From assembly GCF_963675165.1 (NCBI RefSeq), contig NC_087390.1, positions 1,135,501 through 1,199,500 on the forward strand: DNA of 64,000 nucleotides, read 5' to 3'. This DNA comes from Halichondria panicea. Lineage: Eukaryota; Porifera; Demospongiae; Suberitida; Halichondriidae. Of the stretch, positions 13,859-54,720 are shown piece by piece; the first letter of the stretch is position 1; each line of letters opens with the position of its first letter. Position numbers and translations under genes: made by a program. The notes beneath the pieces were generated by a model. That model saw nothing but the letters and a program-made list of their open reading frames with translations, did no database searches and was not told where the DNA came from.

Positions 13859-14058
13859 CTATAATAAAAAAGATCATCATGAAACAATTAAAATACAAGA
13901 ATCTCAAATAATTGCCCCTCAAAACCTGTGCCAGAGCCATGCACGTACTGCTTTATCCCCAAATAAAATTATAACAAGAGAATAAACGTAAATTATGCTC
14001 ATTGTGGTCAAACATCAAAGGATTGTACTACTGAAATATATAGGTGTAACTATTACAA

Positions 14059-16864: not shown

Positions 16865-19800
16865 CTATATAATATACGCGAAACTAATTAATAATACAGT
16901 GGAACCTTCAACAAGGCATTGGCCCTCAAAACTAAGGATTATCTTTCCATAGTTGAATAATTTGTACAAACTATCAGGGAATGGGTGTTTACCCCACAGT
17001 ATATCTAAGAATTTGATTTGTGAAGAGCATTTGTCTCTCTTGAGTCCAGCCATAAAATGAAGATGATTTTGATCTTCCATTTTGTTGGCGAACCTGACCT
17101 TTATTTCTAGCATGAATTTTCCTACTGCTATGCAATAGCCTAGAGCAAAGAAATACAAGGGATCCGGTTGTGACTGAATTAGTTTGATAGGGAGTACAAC
17201 ATTATCGAAAGAGGAAATTAGTTGTTTATTTTGAGTTTCATAAAGCCAGAGTATGTGTTCTCTATTGAGGTAAATCACCAACTCATTGTCTGATGATCTA
17301 ACTCGTGGAGCAGGTAGAATACATTTTGTCCAGTCATCCGACAATTTTGTGAGACAAAAGACTATATAAATAGGAAATATGCTTTTGCTTTTTTTGTCAA
17401 CTTCAGGTTCGGTTGTTGTGCGGATTGTGCAGCTATTGCTATTCTCATGATTTTCTCTGTACACTTCGACTACAATTCTGGCATGAAGAGGGTTATACAT
17501 TGCACTAGAGATACGTGGATTAGAGTCAATATATTTACGTAGTTCTGGTGGAGCCCCATCTTTGATCATTAGATCAATGTACTCTTGAATTTGTTTGGAA
17601 GAAAAACCTAAGATTTCAATGAACTGATCAAGTCTTGAGCTACAAGTAACAGGTAGATTACATACAGCCCAGGGCCTAGTGGTAACAAGCACGGTACTAG
17701 CTGGCAGAAGACATCCGGTTATTAGCTTCATAAATATGGAGTATTTTTGTCTAAGGGATGGTGGCAATTCATCCAGGCCTTCCAAAATGAAAAGAACGTC
17801 CTGCCCTTGATTCTTTCGGATAATAGTATGAACACTTTTAGAAACATCAGTATCTCCACATTGAAATAGATCAACTAATTCTACAGCTTCGTGAACATTC
17901 TCATCTCGAAGTCGGAGCAATACAACGAGGGAGTAATCTGTCCAGCCTTCACCATTAGCCCATCGTCTGCACAGTTCCCATGACAAAGTCGTCTTACCTC
18001 CTCCAGGGGCCCCCTTAATGACAACTAGTTTAGAGAATTTGCCATTTACTTTGGAAGCTATCTGGTCCATTGTGATTCTCTCTCTAGGAAATTTATACAG
18101 TTCGCCTTTAACTATTTTTGACCAGGAATCTTTGATTTCCTTTCTCGATAAATGTTTACTTACATCCGCACATTCTAGGTTAACAAAGTGTTTAACACAC
18201 TGGAGAGGATATTTGTCATCAGCAGGGAGGGATCTTGTATCGTAAATACTAGTTAAGTATGATCGATAAATTCCTATTGCTTCATCTGGTTGGATGGTGG
18301 AACGATCAGATTTGGATTCTAAGAATAATCATGAAGCGAAGGTAATAATACAGTGGAATCTTCAATAATGGGCCCTCCAAACTAGAGAAAAACATTACGC
18401 CTCTAAATAAACGACTACCGTATGGCGAGAAATTTTTGTGGGGTGCAACATTTTGTGTTTTTCGAGGGCAGACCAGTTGATGCGAATATTAAAACTTCCC
18501 ATCACACACCGGTCAGAGGAGGTATGACACGCGTGCCTTGATTTAGCAATTATAGCCTCTACAATAACGTTGAGTATGGGCGGATAATCGAGGCATAATT
18601 TAATTGCTAAATCCTGACACGCGTGTTTTACTTTAATTCTCTGCACACCGGTATTTCACATGTAAAGCTATTGGTGGGTGTGGTTTCCTGGCATTAAAAC
18701 GCAAATATTAAAACCCACGAAATTTTTTGCTGAGGGCTCTCTCTCACCTGCGAAAATTTCCCACCGTACGGTATGCTTCTATCCCTTTACATTATAGTTA
18801 TAATTACAGTTATAGTACATAGGCATGAGGTATCTATGTGTTATAGTGTCCCAAATCCCGAGGGATGAGGGACACTATATTCATAGATACCGAATGCAAA
18901 TACCCACTTTTCATTGGCTATATATATGTACTAGCCCTGCCTCAGGCAAAAAGTGTATCTATAAAAGCAGCAAGCCTTATAGCAACAGCTTCATATTTAA
19001 AAATGTCCTGTTCTGACAGGGGGATTTCTGCTTCTCAGCTAAAAAACCTTCGCATTGGTCCTGAATTGCCCTGCTTCAACATTGGAATGGACAAGCTAAT
19101 GGATTAACTATAGCTCCACCTTCTGCAGGAAGCGTTCTGCAACAAACGAGTCAAGCCTCCTTTTTTCTGTGCACTCGAGCCCCACCCCCAGCCCAAACTT
19201 CTCAGTTCTGTATACGGCTAGCTAGCAAGGAACAGCTTGCTACACTATTGTTCCCAAAAAGACACAAGAGTCTACTAAATGGGCAGTAAACAATTTTAAA
19301 ACATGGCTGCATGCAGGATTAGAAACAGAAGTCAGGAGGATCACAAATGCCTATAGAAGACCTGCTGCTTGTGACAATGGACCCAGAACAGTTAAATCAT
19401 TGGCTTTCAGTGTTCCTCGTAGAGACAAGGCTATACCATCAACCCAGCAAGCGCTATAGAAACTGAACAGCCACAGCTAATTATCATGGCTAGAGCTTCA
19501 TTTATCATTTCTAACATTAAAAAATTATACTTGTACTTTATACCCTCAAGTTTAATTCCCTGGGAAACTATGAAATTACGGCTCATAATTCCCTACTAAA
19601 CACACACAAGTGCATGGGATTAAAATGCACAGCAATCTTTCAAAGATGTGTCTTTTACTCTATCACCATCCACACTAACTAAACTGATTCTACTCACCGG
19701 TTGGTCCAGGAGTCGTTGTGGACAATTTCTGCCTCTTAGATGGCCCTGGTGAAGTATCCTCAACTGAAAGTAAGTAATTGGATGCTATAGAATTGTGTAT

Positions 19801-22800
19801 TTAAGTACAAGTTACGTTTCTGACCAGGATTAATAGACTATAATGTCTATCCATAGAATGCGTATAGTGGGAAATACAATACCTTGCACTGTGCTTTCTT
19901 CCCAAAAGCATTTCAAACTCTTCATATTAATAATTATTTCAGAGACATGTGTTTAAGTATTGTGATCTGCTACTGACGTAGCCAAATTTAATTGAGCGTG
20001 GGCAAGAGTAAACCGCAATATCTGTCCTCCAACACACTGTGACACAGTACTTGGAGCGTTTAGGAACTAGAGGCAAAGAGTGTGTGAAGCTACAGAACAG
20101 TATGTAGAAGTTAGCTCTACAAGATGAAGTATGAAAGGCTAGAGTACTACTGTATCTGATAATAGCCCTCGTCAAAAGGACCTGGTCAAAGAAGGAACCT
20201 ATCCCAGATCCTGGACAACTCACAGCAATACTTCTGACATGCCAAAATTGAAAAACCCTACAGATCCCTTCATGTCATCAGAAGGAATGTTTTAGTCCAA
20301 GTCATAATAAAGAAGAAGAAGCTATATAGATCTATATATAGATTGCCCTGGAAAAATCACACTATCCAACTAGAAGGGCAAGGGCAACCAATTTTATCCT
20401 AGGATAATTACAGTAGAACTACAGCAGAACATTCAACTACAGACTACAAGACTCGCCTTATCAAACTCAATGTGCTCCCACTCTCAAGACCTCACGTTCG
20501 ACCAAGTCGAGTGTCTCAAATTACAGCAGACAATGTAGACCTGAGTGCTTATCTGCAGGTATTATTTCCGTATCCACTATAGAGCTGGTTCTACTGCCAG
20601 AAAGTTTCCAAAAGGAGCAAAACCTCTAAAACTACTACAATAGGATTGCACGACTATGGAATTGACTGGACCCTATCGATCTAACATCAATACAATCTAT
20701 TACATGTATTGAACTAAGGGAAAATTCGACATTGGTGCTCGTGCCCCTGTGAAAACTGTCTCATGCACACAAATTAGTATGGTTTAATCTCACTCTGTCA
20801 GTATACTAATGAGATCACAACCTTGCAACATTGTCATGTCATTCTCAAATACTAGCTCAATAATAATACTCAAGCCTCAATTTGAGGCTTGAGGATAGGC
20901 TCAAAGATAGACCTTTAGTCTCAAGCTTCACTATGCTAGGTATTAAAGCCATCGTCTATGATAATATCTCCAGACTTGCATATAAAGTACATTAAGTCTG
21001 CAATGTGTAGGCATCCTGTGGCTTTGTTGCCTGTCAGGTTCCGCCCATCTACTGAAAGCCCACGCTCATTTTCACTGTGCCACCACTGTGCCACCGTCAC
21101 GCAACTTAGCGAGGCAGGCTCTCCTTTTTCTTGGACGGTTTGTTCTTTCTTTCTTTGTTCCTCCAATTCTTACCGTATTTTATCTTATTGACCGTGTGAC
21201 AAAAAACAGAAAAAGGAGCTAGAGGCTGCGAAGGAGGCTAATGTGTTTACTCTATCACCACCCACACAAACATTAAAGTGATTCACTCACTGGTTGGTTC
21301 GGGAGTCGTTGTGCATAATGTTGGCCTCACAGATGACCCAGGTGAAGTATCGTCAACTGAAAGTCAGTAATTGGTCGTTATACAATTGATTGAAGCAAAA
21401 TTAAACATTCCATCTAAGTTACATTCTAGTTATCCATTCACTATAGTTAAGTACCGTTGACTACTCATGCATAGAAATGCTTCTATGTGGTCAAGGTTAG
21501 CCTCATGACTATTCATACCTGTACATGCCTCCTCTATAGCCTCAGCGACATCATTCCGATCAACTGTTGGTGCACTGAGACTTTGACATATTTCAAAATA
21601 GGTGAGAGGGCCAGTCTTCAAGCGAGCAACTATCATTTCACGTAGACAGTCCTTGTTCCTGTGATAGTCATCCTTTATATCATCGAGGGTGCCATGACCT
21701 AATCCCAGAGCGAGTCCCAGATTAAACCAATTTCCAGCAGCTTCTATCAGTTTTTCATAAACAGAATTCAAATCACTGAGCATCAGAATTGAACCTATAT
21801 GCCAGTAAATGGTAAATTCTGTTAATCAATGGTATGTAGACTACATCCATGGCATCCATGTATACACCATAAAACAGCTGACAGCAATAAGTGTTATATA
21901 TACATACACAAGGAGACACCTACTTACCAAGCGTTGGTCCAGGGTTTGCTTCAACATCTCCTGACTGTAACAGTAAGCGGAATATCAGTAACAGTATACA
22001 CAGACTGAGAGTGGGGGGCAACATCAGTCCATTAGTGCTCTGAACTCTCACTTGGAACTTGGTCGGTTTCTCTTGAGTATCAAAAACTAGAAACCAAAAA
22101 GTAAAAAAGTAAGAGTGTTGTGGCAGCTAGCATTTGATTATACCTAATGTAGTGCAATACTGAATGTTCCATTGTTTCCGAGGGTTCCATCTCACCAAGC
22201 AGGCAGTGATGAGTGAGTAGCAGGTGATAAGCACAGCTGACAGAATGAGAACGACCAGTGCACTCCCCCTCCATCCCAGCTCACAAGGAAACACTCCGGT
22301 CCAACTCAAGTCAACCACAGGGCAAGCAGGATGTGGGGGAGCTGTGTAGAGTTGCATAAATATATTCATGTGCTGTGACATCACAATTGTGGTCATGACT
22401 CCGTGAATACCAAGCATGCAATGCACTATTAAGGCCATGCAAAGTCAATTTGTAGTTTCTCAGGCCCTCGCGCTTTGGAAATTGACTGCTTTCCAAATAT
22501 ATCACGTGACCTCAAATTAGAGGCACTAAAAGAAAAGACAATGATAAATTTGTATGGTTTTGTGGTCATGAATATAATTATGACTAAAATTAATTATGCA
22601 CTTCCGCTTATTGAGGAAGTTAGTGATGTGTTTTCAATTAAATTCTATGAATATCATTATCATGCCTCAAATCCGCTTGCTATTTTAGGAATAATAGCCT
22701 GAGAAACTACAAATTGACTTTGCATGGCCTAAATGGCTGTTTAAAACTTATATTGTGGCCTATGCCCGGTAATAATATACTCTGTACCAAAGGTTATGAT

Positions 22801-23079
22801 AAGAAATTATTGGCGAGTATACTTCACTGACTCACAGGAAAAAGTTTGTAAGAAGAGTATGTATCTGATGGTGACCATAATGAGGTAGAGTTGGTAGAGG
22901 ACAGGGGTGATCAACACAGAGGCAAGGCTGGCTCTGAGCTGCCAACTAGGCTTACGGAAAACCAGTGTAACATTATCTTCCAGATCTTCCGGGTAGTCAT
23001 TGCAGATTGGTTGTCTGATTTTTGGAGACCATTTTCCTTCGAAGGATCTTGCTGCTGATGACCTTAAAATCCACTGCAT
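16865..23079 (-). CDS. Leader-2A-DEATH-linker-NACHT gene with shortened NACHT (NLR-1c, ~820 aa)
   Basis: Seven exons join, every internal boundary in phase 1: 22836-23079, 22144-22341, 21928-22086, 21519-21794, 21291-21356, 19698-19763, 16865-18318. The first three encode ~197 residues with three hydrophobic segments, ending in DVEANPGP. The fourth is a DEATH domain. The fifth and sixth are duplicate 22-residue linkers (DTSPGPSKRQKL type). The last is a NACHT exon with intact Walker A (GAPGGGKTTLSWELCRRW) and Walker B. Compared with NLR-1b the NACHT exon lacks ~145 residues after KSIFP, then rejoins in frame at LTKLSDDW. It ends shortly after LYKLFNY, with no LRRs. A few residues N-terminal to MQWILRSS also stay open (ATG at 23148). 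It may be a functional short form, a decaying copy, or the source of 5' exons for NLR-1b. The head-to-head neighbour is the MUT pseudogene. Confidence 0.75.
18417..18773. mobile_element. Inverted-repeat element (MITE-like)
   Basis: Bounded by ACCGTATGGCGAGAAATTTTTG and the inverted GCGAAAATTTCCCACCGTACGGTA. It lies in the intron between the NACHT exon and linker exon of NLR-1c. No coding sequence seen. Confidence 0.65.
19230..19460 (+). pseudogene. Possible relic of a Crypton/ZMYM-type (DUF3504-like) protein
   Basis: One frame contains PKKTQESTKWAVNNFKTWL, resembling the start of the tyrosine-recombinase-like domain shared by Cryptons and ZMYM/QRICH1-type proteins. It soon meets stops. The region 18774-19697 shows no other gene. 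Identification is from pattern memory only. Confidence 0.35.
20400..20720 (+). pseudogene. Relic of a LINE reverse-transcriptase C-terminus
   Basis: The translated stretch YKTRLIKLNVLPLSRPHVR, followed by a broken RIARLWN-like piece near 20640-20665, resembles the C-terminal tail typical of non-LTR retrotransposon ORF2 proteins. It is interrupted by stops. The rest of 19770-21290 is non-coding intron of NLR-1c as far as I can see. Confidence 0.45.
21928..22086 (-). other. 2A ribosome-skipping exon, unit 1
   Basis: A 53-codon phase 1 exon encoding a hydrophobic helix (LSLCILLLIFRLLL) followed by QSGDVEANPGP. The C-terminal part fits the 2A consensus D-x-E-x-N-P-G|P exactly. The skip would fall between Gly197 and Pro198 of NLR-1c. 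The exon is nearly identical to the unit 2 copy at 41122-41280, although surrounding introns have diverged. Confidence 0.85.
22433..22730. mobile_element. 298 bp MITE with 34 bp terminal inverted repeats
   Basis: Ends AGGCCATGCAAAGTCAATTT and its inverse. It lies in the first intron of NLR-1c. The matching intron of unit 2 (near 41950) lacks it, so insertion followed the duplication. The 75-residue frame inside (22475-22702) has no recognisable domain. Confidence 0.8.
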
Positions 23080-32500: not shown

Positions 32501-35500
32501 AGTTAATATACGTTACAAATTAATAACACTACAGTGTGCACAACACTATAGACAGCATCACATGATGCATATATTATAGTAGGATGATGCTATTATTGTG
32601 TAGCTACGTATGTACATGCTTTGATTAACACGGAAGTACGATGTTCTTGCACACCCAGTGACATCACATGATCCCATAGATACCTGATCATGATGGAGTC
32701 TTCTAGGTAGAGCTGCAGTTCTGACATGTTGGAAGCACCACTGAAGTCCCATCCAAACTGATTCTAATGCATAATTAATTATGGGATGGTATAATAATTT
32801 CAATGGTGTTACAGTACTCTGACAGACAAAAACAACAGGAAGAAAATATTATCAGTATTTACGTCAAACAACAGCAGTACACACACACACTGAAAACTAA
32901 CAAGTTTCTAGAGTTCAATATCAAAATGATCCTTCATAAACGTCGAGACTGCATCACATAAAGAGTGTGTTAAGCTCCACAAAAAGTACATCAAATTTTT
33001 ACACTGTTCGAAATAAAGATACGGATCGTCCGGATGGCTTGTTACACATCTGTATAAGTATTCTAGATAATCTCCCGGGACTTCTCCTAGCAATTTTTGG
33101 AAGTGTACTTTTTGCGGATCTTGAAATAGTTTGCAATCGATGCTTGAAAAGTAGTTGAGGCTTTTCTTAGTTACAACACAGTGTATTCCATGATAGAGAT
33201 GTAAGATAGTTGATAGACCATCAACTGAGGAGAGAACGAGATCAGTCACTTGATATTCTTTATGACAATACGATGCTTTGATTGGAATCACAGCACTAGA
33301 AAGGCTGAGTGTAGTACCAGTAGATTCAAAGATTTCCTTGAATGTCTCATCGATGCCATTGGCTCCATCGAACACGGGGACAACCTCATCACATTTGGCC
33401 AATAGATACTGCTTGTAGCTATCGAAACTGTCCCTCCAAAGCTCTGGGTGAGGTAGGAGGTACGAGCTCATTTCAAAGGCTGCCTTTTTATCATCTTTGG
33501 AGGAGTGGTGTAGTAGAGAGTGTGCCACAACTTCTTGAAGATGGGGAGTTAGTTTGTTAGTTTCTTTGGATGTTGATGAAGCCAGAAGCTCTTTAAACAC
33601 AATTTCTACGGTTTCTTTCAGTAGATCTTTGATGAATATTTCCAACATTTCCATCAACTGATTAAAGTGAGGCCAAAGAATTTTTGAAAATACGTCTCTA
33701 GAAAATGTCTTCCGTCTTTCATTAAATAAGAGGACAACCTTTTTTTCAGAAGCATCAAATTCGTTGACAAAATTCACTAGACAAGTGAATTTATTTGAAA
33801 CTTCTTTTGTTGCCATAATTATTACAACTATATAATTATACAGAAGGCCTCGTCTTGAAAATAAAATGTGCAACTGCATGGTGTACTTTCTTATATACTG
33901 ACCTAAAACACAGCAATGTAGTTAGTCAGCTTACTTAGCCAGCTAAGCAAGTGCAAATAAATTCACAGTTTACACGAAACTAATTATGGTATTGCACAAG
34001 CTTCATGCAACTAGTCTAGCAATATTCATGTAAACAGTCGTGCATTCCAAGAATAGAAACATGACTGAGATTCCAACAAAATAACATAGTATATCATGAG
34101 ACCGAGTGTTGTAGTGTGCTGCCTGTACACAATTCTCATGTTATATCACAATGACCCCTTACCAGAGGCTACGCGACCGTGTGATAAGACAAAGAAGGGA
34201 CTGTATGTGGCTTCTATTACACGCTTATCGCTATGAAAACAAGGCAATGAAAACATCAAACACAATGTCAGCCATAATTAGCCCTAGCAGCAGATTCTTC
34301 AACAATGGAGGCCACGATGGTTTTCATTACTCTTGATTCACCTTGACTCCATTGCAGTACCTCAGTCCGAACTGGGTGTGGGACACTAGTCTGAAGTTCT
34401 TGTCCACTGCAGTGATCTGTGTGTACAGCTCGATGGGTCGGGATAGGGCAGGTGTCCCTGACAACAGGACAGCCCTCCGAGCACTCTGGGGGGGGGGCGG
34501 GTGAACATACTGGTGTATAGTAACTAGGTATGTATGTACATGTATGTATGTACAGCGTTTGTGTATGCATGCAATGCACTGTGTTTTCACAGAATGCCTT
34601 AAATATAATATGACTGGATGCTGTTTCAGAGAAAGCTGGCAATTAATATTCAGTAGAGGTAATGAATTTACTTTGAGCCATCAAATCTACGTACTTGGAA
34701 TCCTTTCAAGTAATCATAGCTTCTGGGCAACCCAGCATAACTACCAGACACTATACACTGTCTACTGTGTACCTTGATGACTGGAATGGCTGCTTTGGAG
34801 CGAGCAGTGCGATAGTTCTTGAGAAAGTGAGACTCATCCTACATAACAAAACACACTATCATGATTATAAACTCTAGCCAGAATTAAGCAAATCATTTAG
34901 TTAGTAGAGGTGGCCGCATATATAAATTAATTTTTAAATAAGGCAATTCGCAATTAAATGGCCCTCAGCTATACAATAATATCCAAGGTACATATTGCGA
35001 TTATAGCTGAATATGCAATTTGCTGTTATGTAATAGCACTAGATACCGCAATGATGGCTGAGAATCTGTGCTCTGTGATGTCCTTGCTCATCCTGACCAG
35101 CAAGTCATAGCTAATGATATTCACGAGGCAGAATGAGCCACACCCCTTTGTCGTTAGGATGACATTAATATCAGCGTCCACCAGTGAAGGAATCCATCGT
35201 TTGAATGCCTGCACACGGGGTGGGCATAATATGAATACTATATGCTTACGCTATATATATATACACATCATACGAATGGTCAGTAGAACATCAGCACCAC
35301 AACTCACTTAAAAAATTCATTTCCACATAAAGAGCAGAACACAGACTAGCGCTATTTCAACAACCCTCTATCTAAGCTCCTTTGGACTGACATACATGTA
35401 GCTATATACTAACTCACACAATTCTACTACATGTATAATTATCTTGAAATAATTGCTTAGTAGATAATAGTTTACGCTCAACAGAGAAAGCCTCGCCCAC

Positions 35501-37334: not shown

Positions 37335-40300
37335 TTATTGTGTGGGATACTTTATTCTACTCCTAACACTGTCATAGTCGATGCACTTTATAGCACTTTG
37401 TCTTGCACTTAATGGAATATGTAATTCTCTAATTGTTGTATTGAGTTTTAGACCCTCGATAATCGGAGACCAGTCGGGAATATCCGGCACCATCAGGTGG
37501 AGAACACAAAGAGTCTTATTTATTTTCAACATATCACCAACAGCTTTGGTATCTTCCGAAGTGATGAGTAGCTTCTGAAATTCAGAGTATGTGTATTTAC
37601 ATTCAAGTATCAACTCCAATATCAAAGTTGTGAGACTCGAATTCTTACTCAATGCATTTGCGATAGGTAGTAAGAAACGTTGGTCTGGTTCCACACACAG
37701 TGTTGGCAAATGCAGGTGCTCAAGATACTTTTTATTCTCAAGTACATTGCAAATAGCCATAATTGTATCGTTGCTGGCTATTAGATCTACTTGTTTATAT
37801 ATGTTTAGTCTAATCACAAACTTCTTTAGCGTCAGACTGCAAACAGTCTCCATTATTTGTTTCAAAAATGTTGATGAATGTATTGGAAGCAGACAATCTT
37901 GTCCGCCATACAAGTTTATGTCAGCGGTTTCAAGTTTAATACCATCACACACCTGAATACATATTTCTTCTAGAACACTGTTTTGTCGTAGCAGGGCACA
38001 GAAGTTTTCTATCATATCATCTGATGTGAACTCCACGTTACAATATAGTTGTTTAACTGAAGAGTTTTCTTCGAGTGCCTTGATAATGTTATTAGACTGA
38101 ACATTAACCTCTTGCAGGGTTTTATGTTTACATACTGCAGATGCTGTGATGTTTTGAGAAAGATCGGAGCCCACATCAACTGCTAGCTTTTCCAGCAATA
38201 GACACTTGGAGAGAGAAGAATGATAGATCGAGAGTGTTAAGGAACTTCTGCACAGTACGCCATCTAGTGGATCATCAGTAAATAGTCCGAAATAACTTAA
38301 AAAGATAGCGAAATGATCGATACATTTAATTACCTGCTCTGTAAAATCCCCTGCAAATATTGAACCCAAATTCGAAGGGAATAATTGAGGTAGATTTAGT
38401 TCTTTGAACCTTTTGATATTCAATCCAAAGTTTAGACGTGTATTGCAATCAGCTGATTCATAAATATCTAATATATCACCGTCAGCACCGCCTACGTATA
38501 TGGTAACTTCCAAATATTCTAAAGAAGAACAGAATTCTGTAATTGTATCATTTAAAATGCCAGTTATTTCTAAGTCATTAATATGAAAATGTAATGTCTT
38601 CAGAGTTCTCGAATATTTCAATACTTCTAATAAGATCGGCAACGATGAGATAGTAACCGTCTCAACATTCTCTAGGAATTTTGATAGTTTGCTTGCCAAC
38701 GGCATGTGTTGGCCATTATATACTTGTAGCACTCCTTGTGTTGCAGCTGGAATATAGTTTATTATGTCGCACCAACTATCAGGGAATGGGTACATATCAC
38801 ATATCACATTTAAAACTTTGATCTGTGAAGAACAATTAGATTTGTGTCTCCTGAGTCCAGCCATTAAAAAACGCATATTTTTCGAAATGGAGAACCAGTA
38901 ATTTAATTCTAACATGAAGTTCCCTACTGCTATGCAATAGCCTAGAGCAAGGAAATACAAGGGATCCAATTGTCGGTGCATTAGTTCGATAGGGAGTATA
39001 ACATTTTCGAAAGAGGTAATTAGTTGTTCATTTTGAGTTTCATACAGCCAGAGTATGTGTTTTGTATCGAGGTAAATCACCGTTTCATTGTCTTCTTCTC
39101 TAACCTGTGGAGCAGGCAAAACACACCTTGTCCAGGGATCAGAAAAATGTGTGAGACCAGCTAAAAATAAGATTATCATATTGCTTTCGGATTTAGATTG
39201 TGTTTCAATAAAAAATAGCTGTTTTGGTTGAGAGTATGTTCTCCATATATGGAATGCAGCCAAGAACTCTTGCAGCGTTAGATGAATGAAGTTGTATGAA
39301 GGAGATACGGTTTGTGTGATGGATTGATACAGTGGGTGGACACTGTTCATAAAACCAAGTGTAGTACTGCTTTCGGGAATGTCGTCCTCATAGAAAATAA
39401 GCTGATTTGCGTTCTGTATTGCTAATCCTTTGTGTGCAATTCGGCAGAGGTGAAGGAAATGAGGTTGAAGTGATTGAGGTAACTCTTGAAGATTACCATT
39501 CCACTCTTCTTGCACTGGGTGGTCAGTAAGGTATCGCTTTAGCAAAACACTGGAGTATGCAGTATAAAGTTCTGTTGTTGTGTTTGGAAAAATATTTTGT
39601 TTTCTGGTATGGCATTCCATGTAAACTTGAATAACAATACGAGCACAGAGAGGATTGTACATGGCACTGTTAATGTGTGGGTTGGCAGCAATATACGTTC
39701 GTAAATCATCTGGTGCTCCATCCTTAATTGCCTGATCAATGTACTCTTGTATCTGTATCTCTGTAAAACCAAGGACCACAATTTTTTGATCAATTCGACT
39801 GCTACATTTTTTAAGTGAATCTAAAGCCCATGGCCTGCTGGTTATGACAACAGTACTTGCTGGTAAAAGTTTTCCATGTATGAGTTTCATGATAACGGAG
39901 TATTTTCTACTAGTAAAACTTAGTGCTTGCGGAAATTCATCGAGACCCTCCAGAATAAACAACAATCCTTCACCTTCTGATTGAGATACTTCGTTACTAA
40001 CTTTCTGGGATCTAACTTTATCTCCACATTCAAAAAGGTCTGCCAAGTTATCAGCTTCTTGAGTGTACTTATCACGCAGTTGCAGCAATACAACGAGAGA
40101 GTAGTCTCTCCAAATCTTTCCTAAACTCCACCGTCTGCACAGTTCCCATGACAAGGTGGTCTTACCGACTCCTGGAGCTCCTTCGATGATAACTAGTTTG
40201 GGAAATGAGTCACCAATTTTACATGCAATTTGTTCAATACAAACTTGGCCTTTATCTACAAGATCAATTTTACCGTGCACTTGGTGTGTTTGAAGTTTGG

Positions 40301-42714
40301 GTTGAGCATTTCGATCACAATTATTAACGATCATCAGATTTATAAAATGTTTCACACAGCCAAGAGGACAGCGCTCATCAGCAGGAAGCTGTCTTACATT
40401 GTAAGTGCTAATAAGGTATGTTTTGTATGTTTCAATAGCACACAACTTTGGACTTCTTGATGGCTCAACCAAAGTATTGGAATCTGAGAAGATAGATTGT
40501 ACGCATAACTACACGCATAACTCTACACGCATAATTTACTGTCTTAGCCTATATGTAAATGAATTCATCTACTTCTGGTATATGTCATACAAGTCTATAC
40601 TATATACAGTATAATTATATAGCTCTGTATAGTATCTGGTATAGAAAGTAAATTGTAATGGACAAGAGCTAGCGTTGTAATGCATACTACAGCTGCATGA
40701 TATCATGCACTAAAATTAATGTATATACCGGTACATTCTTTCTTTATAGCCTCCGCGACATCATTCCGATCAACTGTTGATGCTCTGAGACTCTGACATA
40801 TTTCAGAATAGGTGAGAGGGCCAGTCTTCAAGCGAGCAGTTATCATGTCACGTAAACAGGTTTGATTATCTCGATGTTTATCACTGATATTATCGAGGAT
40901 GTGAAAGCCTAATCCCAGATCAAGTCCCAGGTCGAACCAGTTACCAGCAGCTTTTATCAAGTTCTTATAAACAGAATTCAAATCATCGAGAGTCAGAATT
41001 GAGGCTATAAAACAAATGATAAGTGCAATGTCGTACACATGGTTTACACATGTATGTTCTATAAAATAGCTGATGAGCAACTTGTATATTATATACGCAT
41101 ACATAAGGAGACACTGCTTACTAAACGTTGGTCCAGGGTTTGCTTCAACATCTCCTGACTGTAACAGTAAGCGGAATATCAGTAACAGTATACACAGACT
41201 GAGAGTGGGGGGCAACATCAGTCTATTAGTGCTCTGAACTCTCACTTGGAACTTGGTCGGCTTTTCTTGAGTATCTAAAACTAGAAAATAAGAGTGACGT
41301 TTATAATTATTGTGTTAGTCATTTGATTACCTGATGTTGTGCAATACTGAGTGTTCCATTGTTTCCGAGGGTTCCATCTCACCAAGCAGGCAGTGATGAG
41401 TGAGTAGCAGGTGATAAGCACAGCTGACAGAATGAGAGCGGCCAGTGCACTCCCCCTCCATCCCAGCTCACAAGGAAACACTCCGGTCCAAATCAAGTCA
41501 ACCACAGGGCAAGCAGGACGTGGGGGAGCTGCATGTGTAGAGTTGCACAAAATTAAAATTAATTCTGAGCGAATCGAGGCTCTAATCAGGTCACGTTAAG
41601 ACTTTAGACACACGAGAACTAGTGCCTCTGGTTGCTGCAGACTGTAACGGATTTCAAAGTTGAAGGACGTGTTAGTGATTGCACAGAGGCTCACAACTCT
41701 ACTGCTTAGAAGGGATTTGTTCAAGCATTCTGGTCATAATTATGGTTTTTATGTTTTTAAATTGACTATTAATTTTGTGACATTACCTACAATCATTACA
41801 GCTCTGCCGCCACCTCTGACACACCCCAGTATTATTGAATGTCAGACCTGATCAGAGTGATGAATATGCATATCTAGGTTGCAGTCCAGTATATTCACGT
41901 GCTGTGTCATCACAATTGTGGGTCATGAGATTTCGTGAATACCAAGCAATGCAAGCATGCTGTTTAAAACTGACCTAAGTTAAATATGTGGCCTATGCCC
42001 TGTAATATGCTCGGCATATACTAGTTGGGCATAGTACCAACCCTGGACGCTCACGTAGGGTTGGGAATCACTGCCATGTCAGGATTTGTGTCACTGCAGT
42101 TTACACGTAACAGCCCAATCAGATTGCAGCGTTCAAGTGCTGAAGGCGTGGTGAATGAGTGAATGAGCCAGAAAGTCAGTAATTCTGTCTGCCAAATCAA
42201 TAGTAGACAAGCCAGCTTGATCCAGGAACACGCCTAGTCAAGTTAGAGCTAATGGAATGCAAAATTGACTCTTGCAGTGGCATTCAAACTGAGCTCTTTG
42301 CGATTACCATCATATATAACTACACCTAAATACCGGTTGCACGAAAACCCTGACAGGGCAGTGGTTTCCAACCTTACACGAGCGTCCAGGGTTGGGCCAT
42401 GCCCAACTAGGTATATACCAAAGTGTATGATAAGAAATGTTATGCAATTATTGGCGAGTATGCTTCACTGACTCACAGGAAAAAGTTTGTAAGAAGAGTA
42501 TGTATCTGATGGTGACCATAATGAGGTAGAGTTGGTAGAGGACAGGGGTGATCAACACAGAGGCAAGGCAGGCTCTGAGCTGCCAACTAGGCTTACGGAA
42601 AACCAGGGTAACATCATCTTCCAGATCTTCTGGGTCTTCATAGGGTGGTCTGATTTTTGGAGACCATTTTCTTTCAAAGGAGCTTGCTGCTGATGACTTC
42701 AAAATCCACTGCAT
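37335..42714 (-). CDS. Full-length leader-2A-DEATH-NACHT-LRR receptor (NLR-2, ~1339 aa before skipping)
   Basis: Five exons, all internal boundaries phase 1: 42477-42714, 41331-41528, 41122-41280, 40729-41004, 37335-40483. An in-frame TGA six codons before MQWILKSS fixes the start. Residues 1-195 form a leader with hydrophobic segments near 48-75 (ACLASVLITPVLYQLYLI), 105-130 (SALAALILSAVLITCYSL) and 172-186, ending SGDVEANPG; Pro196 starts the second product. DEATH occupies 199-290. NACHT follows with Walker A GAPGVGKTTLSWELCRRW and Walker B LFILEGLDEFP. The last ~350 residues carry degenerate LRRs (NSSVKQL, NKKYLEHLHL, NSSLTTLILE). NLRs sense microbial or stress signals and oligomerise in the cytosol; the leader would be made separately by ribosome skipping or keep the receptor on membranes if skipping fails. 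Unlike NLR-1c there are no 22-residue linker exons. It shares a promoter region with MUT. Confidence 0.87.
41122..41280 (-). other. 2A ribosome-skipping exon, unit 2
   Basis: Phase 1 exon of 53 codons. It encodes a hydrophilic stretch, a hydrophobic helix (LSLCILLLIFRLLL), then QSGDVEANPGP, followed by Thr-Phe and a GTAAGC donor. The last eight residues match the 2A consensus fully. The predicted break is Gly195-Pro196 of NLR-2. The helix before it could act as a signal anchor if translation continues. Confidence 0.87.
42014..42418. mobile_element. ~405 bp MITE with ~50 bp inverted ends, unit 2 only
   Basis: Ends TATACTAGTTGGGCATAG and CTGGACGCTCACGTAGGGTTGG have inverse partners at 42367-42418. 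It lies in the first intron of NLR-2; the unit 1 intron lacks it. No coding capacity. Confidence 0.8.
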
Positions 42715-44419: not shown

Positions 44420-47400
44420 ACCCACACATACACACACACACACAGTACGCAGGATTCAGTACAGTTGAGGAGAGCAACAAGTTCTACAAGGCCAACATAG
44501 CAGCCGGTCAGCAAGGGTTGAGTGTGGCCTTTGACCTTCCCACTCACAGGGGGTACGATTCTGATAACCCCCTCGCTGTGGGGGACGTGGGAATGGCAGG
44601 GGTCGCTGTGGACTCAGTGGAGGATATGAAGGTACCTAGCCTGTGTCTGTATAATGTATGGTCTGACTATAATGGTGTTTTAGAGTACTTAGTGTTGATG
44701 GAATTCTTGCTGCTAACTAAATATTGGTTATAGTTATCAAAGCACAACCTTTTTCACCTTATTTTTAATGCGCTATTCTACCAGCTTGATGAATAATTAG
44801 TCTAGCATTTCTGCTCTTTGCTAATTCCGTGAAAAGGGTTGTACACCTTTTGTAAAAATAATGATCAGTTACATGTCAGTATTAGGCATGTATACATAAT
44901 TTTCTGCAGATACTGTTTGATGGAATACCTCTCAACAAGATGTCTGTGTCCATGACAATGAACGGAGCAGTACTCCCGGTACTAGCCATGTACATAGTGG
45001 CAGCTGAAGAACAAGTGAGGTTTAGTTGACCTATAGTACAATCATCACTTGTTTGACCTTCTGTTTATACGTACTGTTTTTATCTCACCACATAAATTGT
45101 TATGGCATTCATTTGTTTGCAATACGGTATTATAATTATGTGTAAGAATATAATTTCTTCCTTTCTCTCTGATTCCTTTGCCCCTCCCCCTGCCCCGCCC
45201 ACACAGGGAGTCAAGCTGGAGGAGCTTCAGGGGACTATCCAGAACGACATCTTGAAGGAGTTCATGGTCCGCAACACGTACATCTACCCACCAGAGTTCT
45301 CCATGAAGATCATCGGAGATATCTTCACCTTCACATCACAGGTTAGAATGGGTGTGGCTTGCTGTGTTCAGGGTTGATTTGTTAATGTGTGGTGTAAGCA
45401 ATGCCATCTTCTACGTTTATCCTGCTGCATTAATTTTATTGATTGCAAAAAATAACCCATACTTTTCTCGCGAACCAAATATTTTGATAATTATCCTTAT
45501 AGATAGGTATTTCACAGGACCACTGCATAATTATTCGAATTGTGAAATCTTAATTCAAGTTACAATCACTCAAAATTAGTAATCAAAACAGGCCCATTGC
45601 CAGCTATAGGCTATACGTAGTGTGTTTTTATGCTGTACCTTGATTGTCTTCTGTATTAATGCTTCCTCTCTGTGTGCAGCACATGCCTCAGTACAATTCC
45701 ATCTCCATCTCTGGCTACCACATCATGGAGGCTGGTGCTGACCCTGTGCTAGAGTTAGCCTTCACTGTGGCTGATGGGCTAGAGTACTGCAGGACAGGTG
45801 TGTGAGGTGTGAGGGGTGTGGGAGGGGGTGTGGGTCTGAAGTTACTAGCTACTACATTGTGGAGTTAAAAGTTAAATTGGTGAGCATTCCTGTCAACAAT
45901 GTTCTATATTGCGTATGTGGGGGTGTGTAAGAAGAGGAGAATCTATGGTTGGTATAATTATACTGGTTTTAAATTAGCGTCGATCCCAGCCCCCTCACTA
46001 GAGGACCTGGTAACCACCGTTTGTGTGGGTGGACTCAATAGTAAATTTTTTCTTTATAATTAATCAATTAACCTTTAATTTGTCTATGGTCACCCACGTG
46101 GTTGATAACTTTAGACAGAAATCGCCATTACAACTCTAGGCTCATACGAGGAGCACTGATCTTACTGATATGGCATCAAACAAGCATCTAGAAGCAAGTA
46201 GACTTGCCAGAGCCGGTCAGTACTGACAGAAAAACGCCCCCACTCTATCACAGTACAAAACCAGACTTTTCAACACTGGAGAGAGCGTGAGCAAGAGCAG
46301 AAGAGAAGTGGAAACCATTATAGTCACTATAGTCTAGGCCATAAATGTTGTAAGTATCTTATTAAAACGTGCTATGATTTGTGCAATGACATCATTGTAA
46401 AATATATAATAATTAATTTACTAAGATATTTCGACCCCCAATAATCTGGGGGGGGGCAATTGACGCATGCGCAGACAGTGTATACCAGGTGGTCTTTGAG
46501 CGGCCTGGAATCGAGGCTAGTTTTAAATTTACTCATTAATTTTCTGCTAGTCTTGTGGCTCATCACATTTCATTAAGGCATGCATTCCTACTCTCATAAC
46601 ACTATACTAAATATATCTTTTGTGAAGAGGTCAGGGCCTTTATTCATAGTAAATTCATTTGGTTTGCTGTACTCCCGTTTGAGACCTCGTATTTTGAATG
46701 TCTTTCACACTGGTCCCAATAAGGGGGTGTGTCAGTCCGGCTGTTCAAAGTATTGTTAGCAAAGCTTGCAATGTGACTTAGCTAGATAGAGCAAGTTCTC
46801 AGATTAACAAATAAGGAAGATATCATGGACTGACTAAGCACATGGTCACAATGACCTAAATACATAACACAAGAAAGTTCTAGAATGTTCCAGACTAGTC
46901 TAAACATAGATATAACATCATTATCAACTAAGTGTACCCAAGGGCGTATACAGAGTATACGCCCTTGGTGTACCTATACTAACAGTATAGCTGTTGCAGG
47001 ATCACAGTGCTGTACATATATATATTTATATATATCGTGATTATGGCCACAAAATATGATCCTTCCATTGAAGAACAGGGACTACTTTCACCGATCGATT
47101 CGTTCCGTGAAGAAGATCCTGTTCCTGTTTCTGATGATGCTCTTAGGGTAGATACAGATGAGGAAAAAGACTATGATGAAAGAAAATTTTATCGATTTGT
47201 TGATAATTTCCCAGAAGAACTAAAAGGCAAATGCGACCCCTCACAAGTGAAGGCAGCATATAAAAATGCCAAACAGCTCAGAATTCTTGTGACTGGAAAA
47301 ACTGGATCTGGAAAATCTACTCTTATTAATGGGATTCTTGGAGTTGCTGTAGCTAAAGAAGGAGACAGTATCAGCAAGGCCTGCACAACAAAAGTCACAG

Positions 47401-50400
47401 ATTATCATGTCACTAAGTGGAAGGTTGACATGATAATTTGGGATAGCCCTGGTCTACAAGATAGCACCGATAATGAGCAGTATCTGAAACAAATGAAGAA
47501 GAAGTGTCAGGAGAGAGATTTGACGATGTACTGTATCGATGTGCGTCAGACGAGGTTGATCAGTGGGAGTAGCAACCCAGACATTGTTGCAATGAAGAAA
47601 CTGACGCAAAAATTTAGTTCTCAGTTTTGGAACAACACCGTGATTGTTCTGACATTTTTCAATTACATTGCTAAAGAGGAAAAGATTATAGATCTTCCAC
47701 CTGCAGATAAGAAAACAGCAGTCGAGGCTAAACTGCAGGAGTGGAAAAATCAGATCGTGCACATTTTAACTCATGATGTAGAGATTGACCAAGAAGCTGC
47801 TGAGAAGGTACTCATTGTTCCGGCTGGTTACTACCGTAAGCCACATCTTCTAGTCTGTGACTATTGGCTATCGAACCTCTGGTTTCATTGCTTTGCTGCT
47901 ATTTCTACTCAGGAAGGCCGGTTAGCATTACTCAAAGCGAATTTCTATCGCATGAAAAAGGACACCAGAGTACAAAAAGAGGATTTTGAAAAAAATATAG
48001 AGGATCAGCCGATTGTGAAGATAAGTAGTTGGTGGCAAAAGTTGGTGCAATTACTTTTGGATATTTTTATTTATATAATTTTGTGATTTCCAAGAATACT
48101 TGTGTAGTACGCAACATGTTAAGATTTGCCTTTTGTTGTATACATGCACATTCTTTGCACCATGGACATTTTGTTGTTGTTGTTTTTTTTACCATGAAAA
48201 CATTTTTTGCCTGCATAAATAATATCAGGTAATGTACTCCTAATAATATCAATGTACAATCTGCTGCCTTTATGGCTATATAAGAAGTAGTATACCCTAA
48301 AGAATATACTCCACTCCTTGCCTCCATATATAGGTGTGAGTGCTGGCATAGACATTGACTCATTTGCGCCTCGTCTCTCATTCTTCTGGGGCATTGGTAT
48401 GACCTTCTACACTGAGATAGCCAAGATGAGGGCAGCCAGGAGACTCTGGGCTCACCTCATGAAGGAGAAGATGGGAGCAAAGAACCCAAAGTCTATGATC
48501 CTGCGATGTCACAGTCAGACCTCTGGATGGTCTCTCACTGCTCAGGTATAGGTGTGCATGAGTGTTTTTATTTGTAGACAGATGAATATACTTTTAGCGA
48601 GAAATTGTGTGTTAATTTGTGCCAGCTTCAGTTTAACTGTATGTAGGAAGAAGTATACCACTGTTCCCAGCCCATATTATTGTAGCTATATTAAATGCAT
48701 TGCCATTTGAGCTCTAATCTCTTACAGGACCCCTACAACAATATAATGCGTACGTGTATTGAAGCAATGGCAGCTGTGTTTGGAGGCACTCAGTCGCTAC
48801 ACACTAACTCGTTTGACGAGGCCCTCGCTCTGCCCACTCCCTTCTCAGCTCGTATTGCCAGGAACACCCAGATCATACTTCAGGAGGAGACGGGGATCAC
48901 CAAGGTTAGTGGTCGGTTAGTAGGTTTTGTCTTACTGACTATATGCATGTAAAGCCAGCTAGGCGAGGCTAGCTAGGATTGGCACTATTTTTGTAGAAGT
49001 TTACATTGGGAGTCATGTTCAGAAAGCATATATTCAATAATTAGAACTTTACCCCCCCCCCTTCCTTCTAGATAGGTGATCCTTGGGGAGGGTCTTATCT
49101 GATGGAGGCCCTCACTGATCAGGTGTACGAGTCAGCACTCAAGATCATCAATGAGGCACGTACAAGGGACACCGGCCTTACAGTTGTATATTCGCTCTAA
49201 TGAAAAGTGCTGTCTCTAACTTTCAAGTTTAATCATTCAAATTTCAACTCTGTAACTTGTCACACTGCATTAGTAATTGTTTCCCTTCTATATAGATTGA
49301 GGACATGGGTGGTATGGCTAAAGCTGTTGCCTCAGGCATGCCCAAGCTGAGGATAGAAGAGTCAGCTGCTAGGAGACAGGCTCGGATTGACTCGAAAACG
49401 GGTGAGTGAGTGCATGGTCCTGGTTAAGGTTCGTGATGATTGAATCAGTATAGTCTTGAAAGCTATAAGCATATTGTGTAGGCCTATAGGCTGATTATGT
49501 TGGTACAGTGACTTTATACATGTACCTGATGCATGTAGTAGCTAGGGTAATGTACGCTTATATCGTTTGTGTACTCAACAATGTTTTTATTAAAAGTACG
49601 CTCCAATTGTTAGATATTACTTCCTGCCACAGACACGATAGTTGGTGTGAACAAGTACACTCTGGACAAGGAGGAGCCATTGGAGGTGCTCTCCATCGAC
49701 AACGCTAAGACCATTGAATCACAGGTGAGAGGAATAGTTGCCAGGGATACCTGTCTGTAGTGATATAGTTGCCAGGGATACCTGTCTATTAGCTATCCTC
49801 CTTACTAATTGGGCAGACCAACAGTGGCTGCAATAAAGAGGTCGCCCTGCAACGTATACAAGTATGGATGTATTACATATCTAAGATGAGGTGAGCACAG
49901 TAGACAGGTTCACCCTCCTTTAAGAAATTGTTAGGCACCGAAATCGGTTACTAATAAAAATTATGTCTCATATTATTCATGACGGAATGTGACAAACAAG
50001 TAAAGTATATTCACGTGCATACCTACACACGCACATGTACACCATCTGTTGCAATATGAATAGAGCAATAATTATAGGCCATAGTTTGGTCCCCACGCCC
50101 ACTTCCTCTCCTTCTTGGTAGAGGCCTGTGGAGGGGAGGAGCTTATAACTATTGTCTAATCAGACCCACCACCATTGCAGAAACGTAAACTGGAGACCCT
50201 CCGCTCCACCAGAGACCAATCAGCTGTCAGCTCTGCCCTAACCGCCCTCACTCAAGCTGCTGAGAGTGGGGACGGCAATCTCCTTCACTTGTCCATTCAG
50301 GCATCACGTGCTCGCTGTACCGTGGGGGAGATATCAGATGCTCTGGAGAAGGTTCATGGTCGCCATGTTGCTGTGCCGAGGATGGTCAGTGGAGCGTACG

Positions 50401-51956: not shown

Positions 51957-54720
51957 GATATTGTTTGATGGAGTCATGACTCAACCTTCAACAAGATGTC
52001 TGTTTCATCTGTCAACTGAAAGGTCAGCAGCATTATAGGTATTGAACCTGTTGCAGAATCCATGAGAATCTGGCACACACAACAACCCTCCTTCAGAACC
52101 ATAGCTGAAAAGGAGGCTGGTGGTGACCTTGTACTGGAGAGTTGGCCTTTCTGTGGCTGAAGGGCTAGAATTGCAGGACAGGTGTGTGAGGTATGCATGG
52201 GTGTGGGGTGTGGGGTGTGTTGGTGTGTGGGTGTGAAGCTATATATACTATACATGGTATTTAATAGTCATCAATGTGTTCTAGGGTGCTTCCCGGCCTG
52301 CACTGCCCTGCAGTAAATGCATGTGGGTGTGTATATATATATATATATATATAGTGCTATATAGCAAAGCACCCCTGGTAGTTTTAGAAGAGAAGATGTG
52401 TAGATCTAACTGTTTCAATATCTTTCTAATGGTCATGTGACTCATCGCACATTCATAAGGATATTGAAGGCATGTATTCGTACTTATAAAATTATAGTTA
52501 TTGTAAAATATGTGTGTATAACCACATGGGTTCATAGTTCATAATATTCATTAGTTTCGCTATACTCCCCTTTGAGAGCTCATTCTTTGAATGTATTTAA
52601 CACTGATCACAATAATAAGGAGAGTGTGTGTTAGTCAGTCAGAGTCTGTTTGAGTATAGTATACATACTATAGCTAATTATGGCCACAAAAAACGACTCT
52701 TGCATAGAAAAGTTTGAACGTTTATCAACCGATGACAAGGTAGTCTCTGATAAGACGGATACAGATGACGACACATCTGAAATTTCTGCTGGTACTCAAC
52801 AGCAAGGCAGCTCAAAAACTAAAGTTCGAACTAAAGTTGAAAACGAGTTCTACAAATTTCTCAAAAATTTACCAGAAGAATTAAAAGGTAAAATTGACCC
52901 CAAACAAATGAAGACAGTGTACGAAAATGCTAAATCTTTCAAACTTCTTGTGACTGGAAAAACTGGCTCTGGGAAGTCTACTCTTGTTAATGGAATTCTT
53001 GGAGTTACTTTACCTAAAGCTAAAGAAGGAAGCAGTATTACCAAGGCCTGCACAACTGATGTCGAAGCCTTTTATACCAAAAAGGAGGACATCGACATGA
53101 CGATTTGGGACAGCCCTGGTCTACAAGATGGCACCGATAACGAGGATTACCTGCAACAAATGAAGGAGATGTGCCAGGAGAGAGATTTGACCATGTACTG
53201 TATCGATGTACACCAGACAAGATTCATCAGTGGTGGGGATGACAACCCAGATGTTGTTGCGATGAAGAAACTTACGAGAGAATTTGGTCCTCAGTTTTGG
53301 AGCAACACCGTCATTGTTCTGACCTTTTCCAATTACATTGCCGATGATGTTCACATCAAATATCTCCCACTCGCAGAAAAGAAAATAGCAGTCGAGGCTA
53401 AACTGCAGGAATGGAAAAATCAGATCGTGCACATTTTAACCCATGATGTAGAGATTGACCAACAAGTTGCTGAGAAGATACTCATTGTTCCGGCTGGGTA
53501 TTATCGTGAACCAGATCTTCCAGTCTGCAAGTATTGGCTATCGAACCTCTGGTTTCATTGCTTTGCTGCTATTTCTACTTGGGAAGGCCGGTTAGTGTTA
53601 CTCAAAACAAATGCTGATCGCATGAAAAGAGACACTGATGTACAAGAAGATGATTTTAAAAAGCCTATAGGGCAGCAGCCGATTGTGTATGACAATAAAA
53701 AGATAGAGTATATGCTACGTAAAGCAAATGTAATAGGGGGTGTGGGTGGGTTTATTACACTTGGCACTATTGGAGCTCTTATTGGTATTGTTGGAGGCCC
53801 TCCTGGAATAATAGTTGGTTTGATCGTTGGAGCGTACGTTGGAGCCGTGAGTGGTGCTGTCGCTGGCACAGCTATCGCAGCAAAGTTAGACTAAACAACT
53901 CTTAGAATTATGTATGTATAAATAATGGTGTTTGTCCTGTTGCACGTATATATACTTAATTAATTGCTTTCGTTGTATCATGCACTCCTGGTTGTATCCA
54001 TTCATTGCTTTTTTACCCTGATAAAGAAATTAATGTTGTTGTTGCTGAAACATTTGTAATTACAGAGCCTGTTATCAAAAATGCTATAATCTCTATAAAG
54101 CTGTTGCTTCAGGCATGGCCAAGCTGCATGAGGATAGAAGAGTCAGCTGCCAGGAGGTGCTCTCCATAGACAACGCTAAGACCATGAAACACAGGTGAGC
54201 GGAAAACAGTTGCCATGCATGCATGCGCAGTAATATACCATAGTATATATATAGTGTTCCCCCTTGTTTGGGCAGACCAACAGTGGCTGCTAGGTTTCTT
54301 GTTTTTTGTGTGTGTTTACATAACTTCAAACTGTAATTATTCATAACTTAATGTGACAAACAATAATTGAAGTCTATATTCACGTGCATACGTACATTGT
54401 ACATGTATACCACCTGCTTTAAATGAAAGAGGTGGTATATAGCCTATAATTATATGCATGTTGTCAAATCAGATCACCACTCCCCCACCATTGCAGAAAT
54501 GTAAAGGAGAACGTTTAAGAGGAAATGCATGGATAAGGCTATGAGAAGAGTGTAGGTGTGCATGTAGAGTGTTGACGGCTATAATATACGGCCCTGCATG
54601 GTACTAGCACCCCTCTGGCTGCCTATGATCTGCTTGATGTTGATTATTTGTCACGTTGAAAGTGCTCTGGACAATGGTGGCAGTGGAGGAGGGAACGATA
54701 GCTAGACAGAAATTGTAAAC
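51957..54720 (+). pseudogene. Third, scrambled MUT remnant surrounding a GTPase gene
   Basis: Pieces in gene order match the intact MUT: 51957-52020 (exon 6), 52050-52185 (exon 8), 52555-52650 (intron upstream of the nested GTPase, like 46668-46760), 54098-54196 (exons 12 and 13 fused by a deletion), 54480-54515 and 54521-54560 (exon 14), 54575-54720 (exon 17). Frames are broken by indels and deletions throughout. A (TA)n tract lies at 52330-52352. Between 54200 and 54480 there is only intron-like sequence resembling 49860-50170. Confidence 0.85.
52680..53894 (+). CDS. AIG1/GIMAP-like GTPase with glycine-zipper tail (404 aa)
   Basis: An intronless intact frame, clearly the sibling of the gene at 47043 (shared stretches such as [20 protein letters not shown]). 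The P-loop GKTGSGKST is at residues 93-101, ACTT near 124-127, DSPG at 144-147; the base-recognition motif is again atypical (LTFSNYIA). The last ~55 residues are Gly/Ala/Ile-rich (GGVGGFITLGTIGALIGIVG), a glycine-zipper able to insert into membranes. An acidic Ser/Thr-rich N-terminus precedes the domain. It is embedded in a ruined copy of the MUT gene at the position its sibling occupies in the intact gene. It was therefore carried along in a duplication and has outlived its host. An immune or membrane-remodelling role is inferred from the family. Confidence 0.88.
   Translation: MATKNDSCIEKFERLSTDDKVVSDKTDTDDDTSEISAGTQQQGSSKTKVRTKVENEFYKFLKNLPEELKGKIDPKQMKTVYENAKSFKLLVTGKTGSGKSTLVNGILGVTLPKAKEGSSITKACTTDVEAFYTKKEDIDMTIWDSPGLQDGTDNEDYLQQMKEMCQERDLTMYCIDVHQTRFISGGDDNPDVVAMKKLTREFGPQFWSNTVIVLTFSNYIADDVHIKYLPLAEKKIAVEAKLQEWKNQIVHILTHDVEIDQQVAEKILIVPAGYYREPDLPVCKYWLSNLWFHCFAAISTWEGRLVLLKTNADRMKRDTDVQEDDFKKPIGQQPIVYDNKKIEYMLRKANVIGGVGGFITLGTIGALIGIVGGPPGIIVGLIVGAYVGAVSGAVAGTAIAAKLD

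Follow-up and report, generated by a model that had tools for sequence, protein, structure and literature searches.

Why should an immune receptor gene of a sponge carry a ribosome-skipping motif behind a leader that resembles a membrane protein? The question is raised by gene A, an NLR-type gene located in a 64,000-nucleotide stretch of the genome of Halichondria panicea (contig NC_087390.1, positions 1,135,501 to 1,199,500, forward strand), hereafter called the window. Gene A encodes a leader with three hydrophobic stretches, a 2A motif (DVEANPGP), a DEATH domain and a NACHT exon, in this order. Based on comparisons with its many relatives in the same genome, we propose that a single mRNA probably gives rise, through 2A skipping, to a small membrane protein and a separate cytosolic DEATH-NACHT receptor.

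Organization of gene A and its predicted product

Gene A consists of five minus-strand exons of 238, 198, 159, 276 and 3149 nt (Table 1), which join into a reading frame of 4020 nt with a single terminal stop. The four introns are all GT-AG and all in phase 1, which bears out the original prediction that the five exons form one chain. The predicted product of 1,339 residues comprises a 195-residue leader that runs to GDVEANPG, followed by P, the DEATH domain and the NACHT exon. A leader of this length with three hydrophobic segments, as well as a perfect 2A motif, had also been announced for this gene, and both were confirmed. Hydropathy analyses (19-residue windows, mean Kyte-Doolittle value (KD) >1.5) placed the hydrophobic stretches at about residues 47-76, 101-131 and 163-192, the third of them continuing into the 2A. 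The intron between the 2A and DEATH exons is only 117 nt long.

We assign exon 4 to the DEATH domains on the basis of a family profile and of the predicted fold. A Pfam scan of this exon returned no DEATH domain match. Pfam Death matches 13 of the 31 aligned family members at E <=0.1 (best 1.1e-4), and a profile of the exon built from these 31 members finds FADD (E 5e-4). The predicted fold of the gene A exon has a predicted local distance difference test score (pLDDT) of 95.8, and its best Foldseek matches are DEATH domains (2of5, FADD, TNFR1 and RIPK1; probability 1.00, best E 0.013), none of the matches reaching E <=0.001. The DEATH domain proposed initially thus finds its support in the FADD match and the fold, though not in Pfam. 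Exon 5 had been described as NACHT-LRR, of which the NACHT part holds (Pfam PF05729, 7.7e-20, above cut-off), and the family profile of this exon finds NLRP3 chains. The LRR part is unconfirmed, with no Pfam LRR match in the C-terminal part of gene A and a poor AlphaFold model (mean pLDDT 38.4).

Conservation of the 2A motif in a large gene array

The genome searched comprises 131 Mb in 39 contigs, and the window lies on contig 14 (C14). A DNA pattern for DxExNPGP gave 116 matches vs one for the backwards control, and chance occurrence of the motif was thus rejected. The exact DVEANPGP pattern yielded 39 matches, 37 of them on contig 14, vs none for the control, and the variant with N instead of D yielded two matches vs one, both belonging to the gene A leader family. 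These two NVEANPGP copies (L059, C14:1031503-1031525, and L061, C14:3451483-3451505) are perhaps natural weak-skipping variants. When the 2A exon was used as the query, the 52 rows obtained included 47 distinct close copies, 42 of which form an array on contig 14. E-x-NPGP is kept in all 47 (45 with D and two with N). A diverged cluster on contig 2 (C2) and other leader families also retain D(V/I)ExNPGP, written in other codons.

For finer comparisons, 22 full copies were used, two from the window and 20 from contig 14. All of them harbour D(V/I)ExNPGP, with LLLQSG ahead of the 2A core. Residues L13, L14 and R11 are reported to be important in a sea-urchin NLR 2A, SpNLR2A6, where L13/L14 mutation cut recoding (PMC4981915); L13 and L14 are present in all 22 copies.

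This conservation bears on the alternative that survives best, namely that the 2A is weak or inactive here and that the fusion, a membrane-bound DEATH-NACHT receptor, represents the main product. Sponge NLR models with transmembrane segments have been read as membrane-bound (PMC12909245), engagement of the translocon can inhibit 2A (PMC2978324), and N replaces D in two copies, all consistent with this alternative. However, the strict retention of E-x-NPGP in the 47 close copies, and of D(V/I)ExNPGP in the C2 cluster and in the other leader families, weighs against a weak 2A, because a plain anchor would not need the motif. We therefore regard this explanation as unlikely.

Start site and selection on the leader

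The 2A exon of gene A has an ATG just ahead of its hydrophobic stretch, and in sea urchin a comparable 26-residue 2A is functional at the N-terminus (PMC4981915). Translation might thus start inside the 2A exon and produce a short N-terminal 2A signal of the sea-urchin type, the upstream exons being untranslated. The distribution of start codons makes this very unlikely. The 2A exon is devoid of Met in 16 of the 22 copies, so that translation must start upstream. Exons 2 and 3 both lack Met in 14 copies, and in 13 copies Met is also absent from the 45 codons that open the DEATH exon, whereas exon 1 offers an in-frame ATG in every one of the 22. This exon occurs with two N-terminal types, MQW (5 copies) and MK (17 copies), with the same membrane core in both.

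Comparison of the C14 and C2 clusters also argues against untranslated upstream exons. The ratio of nonsynonymous to synonymous divergence (dN/dS) of the leader is 0.09-0.11 in the five C2 copies compared (5/5), with synonymous sites near saturation (proportion of synonymous differences, pS, 0.72-0.73; proportion of nonsynonymous differences, pN, 0.22), and the differences show a third-position excess (26 of 40 and 26 of 49 codons). This pattern of substitutions indicates that, between the clusters, selection acts on exons 1 and 2 of the leader as coding sequence.

Linkage of the leader, 2A and receptor exons

Exons 1, 2 and 3 and the DEATH exon are present in this order in all 22 copies, and in 21 of them no stop interrupts the frame that begins at a leader ATG, crosses GT-AG junctions and covers the whole DEATH exon (the exon-2 donor GT of L054 is present). 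We defined the 2A exon by its conserved acceptor (150-159 nt), as some copies offer an acceptor that gives a longer exon; with the conserved acceptor the chain is also open in the 21 copies, and the leaders are ~174-197 residues long, as calculated from exon lengths.

A protein search with exons 1 and 2 gave 92 exon matches. Among them, 47 correspond to exon 2: the contig-14 array contributes 36 of these and the diverged C2 cluster seven, and single copies were found at C14:3.45 Mb, C6, C7 and C16. In all 47 cases a 2A motif lies no more than 500 bases further downstream, reading DxExNPGP in 45 and NxExNPGP in two. The same search returned no exon 2 for six array 2A exons and for the C13 copy. 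With respect to the receptor, 31 close-family NACHT exons of the array were scored, and 30 of them are preceded on the same strand by a 2A exon, without a further NACHT of this kind in between; the sole exception is gene C of the window. Since scoring covered 126 of 252 first-look candidates, these linkage counts are lower bounds. For distant NLRs at C14:5.39-5.48 Mb (34-37% identity), no 2A was found among the matches listed (100 of the 116 DxExNPGP, plus those whose middle codon does not start with G).

The leader exons might alternatively belong to a separate neighbouring gene, or be spliced to the receptor only sometimes. The phase-1 symmetry of the exons would allow this, as skipping of exon 2 or 3 keeps the frame, and at L052 the acceptor of the 2A exon is lost while the remainder is apparently intact. 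Nevertheless, the preservation of GT-AG junctions and frame in 21 of 22 copies, the linkage of exon 2 to the 2A in 47 of 47, the short distance between the 2A and DEATH exons of gene A and the 13 copies devoid of Met from exon 2 into the DEATH exon make this explanation highly improbable.

Some loci show further variations. At L052 (C14:713800-722000), exon 2 joined to the DEATH exon stays in frame, which would give a fused form without 2A. Extra DEATH-type exons past the first, 38-42% identical to exon 4, are found at L056 (224-3336, minus strand; three exons) and L058 (571-2707, minus strand; two exons). At L063 (4767-7001, plus strand), a 745-residue P-loop frame downstream of a C2 leader-2A has only sub-cut-off Pfam matches and appears GTPase-like by eye.

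Other leaders and retrotransposon-type 2As

We also read 30 further 2A loci (L009-L038). In 17 of these, located on C1, C2, C3, C4 and C5, a DEATH-type exon follows the 2A at a distance of no more than 1.5 kb. A second type of leader (MGISVELWRARIGLFSGGRG...) gave 31 matches at 30 loci: 19 run right up to a 2A (a frame change interrupts one of them), seven are N-terminal matches with a 2A ~300 bases further on, and four, mostly truncated, have no 2A among the matches listed. On C1 a third type of leader occurs, in which as many as three hydrophobic stretches precede a 2A; in L011 a NACHT frame follows. These other leaders that precede 2A and DEATH exons look unrelated to that of gene A.

The same genome harbours 2A-bearing elements. 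L012 encodes an endonuclease and a PHD finger according to Pfam; L012, L014, L016 and L028 have retrotransposon-type frames in which the 2A stands just ahead of a PHD-like finger, the latter three being judged by sequence. That the 2A exon of gene A is the remnant of such an element is hardly credible and largely refuted by its conserved exon structure: gene A has no endonuclease or reverse transcriptase domain (Pfam, E up to 1), and the best 19-residue KD before the motif is 1.5-3.1 in leader-linked 2As vs 0.16-0.95 in these four elements, which lack the hydrophobic run. L015 (KD 2.16) is unclassified, and three C2 remnants were too short for KD scoring. An old origin of the 2A exon from an element is possible.

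Two other candidates were set aside. At C2:7823380-7829646 (L023-L026), four motifs lie ~2 kb apart, as might be expected of a polyprotein with several 2As. We do not claim this, because three of the four motifs have 12 open codons ahead, adjoin a CA repeat and resemble a segmental duplication. 2A motifs are likewise ~2 kb apart at C14:1232991-1237226. Candidate CARD domains past the 2A on C1 and C2 were noticed by eye only, and Pfam returned nothing at E <=0.01 in the two exons tried; they are not claimed either.

Proposed mechanism

We infer splicing in RNA, skipping, topology and a stable leader product from the sequences, and propose the following series of events. Each gene would give one transcript, in which exons 1-3 encode a membrane protein of ~174-197 residues that consists of two hydrophobic spans and a third stretch and ends in the 2A, and the downstream exons encode a DEATH-NACHT receptor without its own start. 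The first span would bring the ribosome to the endoplasmic reticulum (ER), spans 1 and 2 would insert, and the following loop would be cytosolic. The 2A would then make the ribosome skip the Gly-Pro bond, with the third stretch still in the exit tunnel. The leader would stay in the membrane, and the receptor would be a separate, cytosolic protein with an N-terminal Pro. When skipping fails, a leader-receptor fusion would enter the membrane system as a minority form.

The distribution of charges in the gene A leader is compatible with such a topology. The N-terminus contains 8 Lys and Arg residues, loop 1 contains 2 and loop 2 contains 6; for Asp and Glu the numbers are 8, 2 and 2, respectively. 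According to the positive-inside rule, a hairpin of spans 1 and 2 would leave loop 2 on the cytosolic side, although Asp and Glu also number 8 in the N-terminus. With loop 2 in the cytosol, skipping would take place while the chain ahead of the 2A is not in transit across the membrane. This may matter because, in artificial polyproteins, the 2A reaction can be inhibited when the region upstream of it is translocated, and a fusion protein then results (PMC2978324). The third stretch would partly represent the hydrophobic context of the 2A itself and would still be in the ribosome at the time of skipping. If it were inserted in an unskipped fusion, the receptor may end up in the lumen, as in sea urchin. 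The original prediction had envisaged the leader as a second gene product and a fused, membrane-tethered form. On the first point, the leader exons do belong to the gene, are coding and lie beside a 2A in all exon-2 copies; on the second, we retain the fusion as a proposal and replace the cytosol-facing tether by a receptor that may be lumenal, in line with the positive-inside rule.

Our preference for one mRNA with two products is based on the combination of the open chain (21/22 copies), the exon 2-2A linkage and the retention of E-x-NPGP (47/47 each), the C14-C2 dN/dS (0.09-0.11), the absence of Met from the 2A exon (16/22) and the exon-1 ATG (22/22), the 2A upstream of array NACHT exons (30/31), L13/L14 (22/22) and the excess of the motif over its control (116 vs 1).

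Several observations weigh against this preference, in addition to the effect of the translocon and to the N-for-D substitution in two copies. The R11 residue of the sea-urchin 2A, which is also important there, is Q in the gene A family. L052, with its lost acceptor, is an exception to the open chain, and 12 of the 42 array 2A exons have no close-family NACHT among the matches listed. Lastly, the synonymous divergence (dS) of the leader is only 0.04-0.05 within the array, with dN/dS of 0.46-0.58, and comparisons with the C7, C16 and C14:3.45M copies also show low divergence, with dN/dS of 0.61-0.84 (the L059 leader has no synonymous difference and hence no dN/dS). Within the array, dS and dN/dS are 0.25 and 0.66 for the DEATH exon and 0.33 and 0.36 for the NACHT exon, and intron divergence is 0.11-0.29. 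More uniform than these exons and introns, the array leader looks homogenised or recently spread. The high identity of the leader within the array is no proof of constraint, because synonymous divergence is equally low; we dropped this argument and took the C14-C2 comparison instead.

A more speculative extension of the two-product model, which we consider rather unlikely, is that the leader serves as a switch. Docking at the ER would come ahead of the 2A, and inhibition of the 2A reaction by a chain engaged with the translocon would set the respective shares of freed and membrane-fused receptor. The location of the receptor would then report the state of the ER and secretory pathway, and the leader families would tune the ratios across dozens of DEATH-type immune genes.

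Other genes in the window

The window contains a second copy of the family, gene B, whose exons are listed with those of gene A in Table 1.

Table 1. Positions of the gene A and gene B features in the window
Feature	Position	Strand	Description
Gene A exon 1	42477..42714	-	Leader start (MQW...) and first hydrophobic stretch, residues 49-76 (~42487-42570)
Gene A exon 2	41331..41528	-	Second hydrophobic stretch, residues 105-131 (~41374-41454); basic loop 2
Gene A exon 3 (2A exon)	41122..41280	-	Third hydrophobic stretch, residues 166-187 (~41156-41221), reaching the 2A core
Gene A 2A core DVEANPGP	41129..41152	-	Predicted skip between G and last P
Gene A exon 4, DEATH domain	40729..41004	-	Assigned by family profile and predicted fold
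Gene A exon 5	37335..40483	-	NACHT, C-terminal part (LRR unconfirmed), stop codon
Gene B exon 1 (leader)	22836..23079	-	
Gene B exon 2 (leader)	22144..22341	-	
Gene B exon 3 (2A exon)	21928..22086	-	Exact DVEANPGP motif at 21936-21958
Gene B DEATH exon	21519..21794	-	
Gene B NACHT reading frame	16865..18328	-	487 residues between stops; lacks ~110 residues vs gene A

Gene C (10707-13952, minus strand) is an intact NLR frame of the same family as gene A, with 1081 residues between stops. It has no leader or 2A exon directly upstream, and the nearest 2A is separated from it by the NACHT of gene B. Two similar frames at 46983-48086 and 52674-53894 (plus strand) appear by eye to encode AIG1/GIMAP-like GTPases. 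Near-identical frames of 328 and 337 residues at 2799-3785 and 32908-33921 (minus strand) are a sign of segmental duplication in the window.

Comparison with known systems

The closest parallel is provided by the purple sea urchin, in which 85 of 241 NLRs carry a 2A (Roulston et al. 2016, PMC4981915). Recoding by D(V/I)ExNPGP peptides is documented in the literature. For a 26-residue peptide of a sea-urchin NLR, the authors put it at ~80%, a qualitative estimate, and the protein is directed into the secretory pathway once recoding has been abolished (PMC4981915). The statement in the original prediction that N-terminal 2A signals occur on some sea-urchin NLR-like proteins is thus borne out in print; sponges are absent from that paper. 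In both systems, D(V/I)ExNPGP follows a hydrophobic run and precedes a DEATH-NACHT receptor, and a substantial fraction of a large NLR family is concerned. They differ in that the characterised sea-urchin form is a 26-residue peptide at the extreme N-terminus, whereas here the 2A follows a three-exon leader of ~174-197 residues. The 2A of gene A is not itself an N-terminal signal, as it ends at residue 195, and the leader adds two further hydrophobic spans and is itself under selection. However, the paper also mentions 2As 'within the N-terminal region', and longer sea-urchin leaders are therefore possible (PMC4981915).

2A peptides of viruses and non-LTR (long terminal repeat) retrotransposons have the same core motif (PMC11512398, a 2024 review that also mentions 2A in NLRs), and 2A elements are found in this genome as well. 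In contrast with those, the 2A described here is a separate exon of intron-containing host receptor genes. Among sponges, Dysidea avara also has a large NACHT expansion and NLR models with predicted transmembrane segments, considered putative membrane-bound receptors (2026, PMC12909245). They differ from the present genes in this membrane-bound reading, and neither 'NPGP' nor 'ribosom' occurs in that text.

A search of an open-access library found nothing linking NPGP with sponge NLRs, or ribosome skipping with sponge NACHT. To our knowledge, few cases of cellular, non-viral 2A recoding have been described, chiefly in sea-urchin NLRs. In H. panicea, the conserved membrane leader and 2A belong to an array that counts 42 2A exons of this kind on a single contig, and other DEATH-type families have leaders and 2As too. 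If our model is correct, it could explain the transmembrane segments of sponge NLR models, the membrane part and the receptor being separate proteins from one mRNA, and it would represent a natural fixed-ratio co-expression of a membrane partner and an immune receptor. Cellular 2A on NLRs is already known; what is new here is a selected multi-span leader across a large array, together with other leaders in other families.

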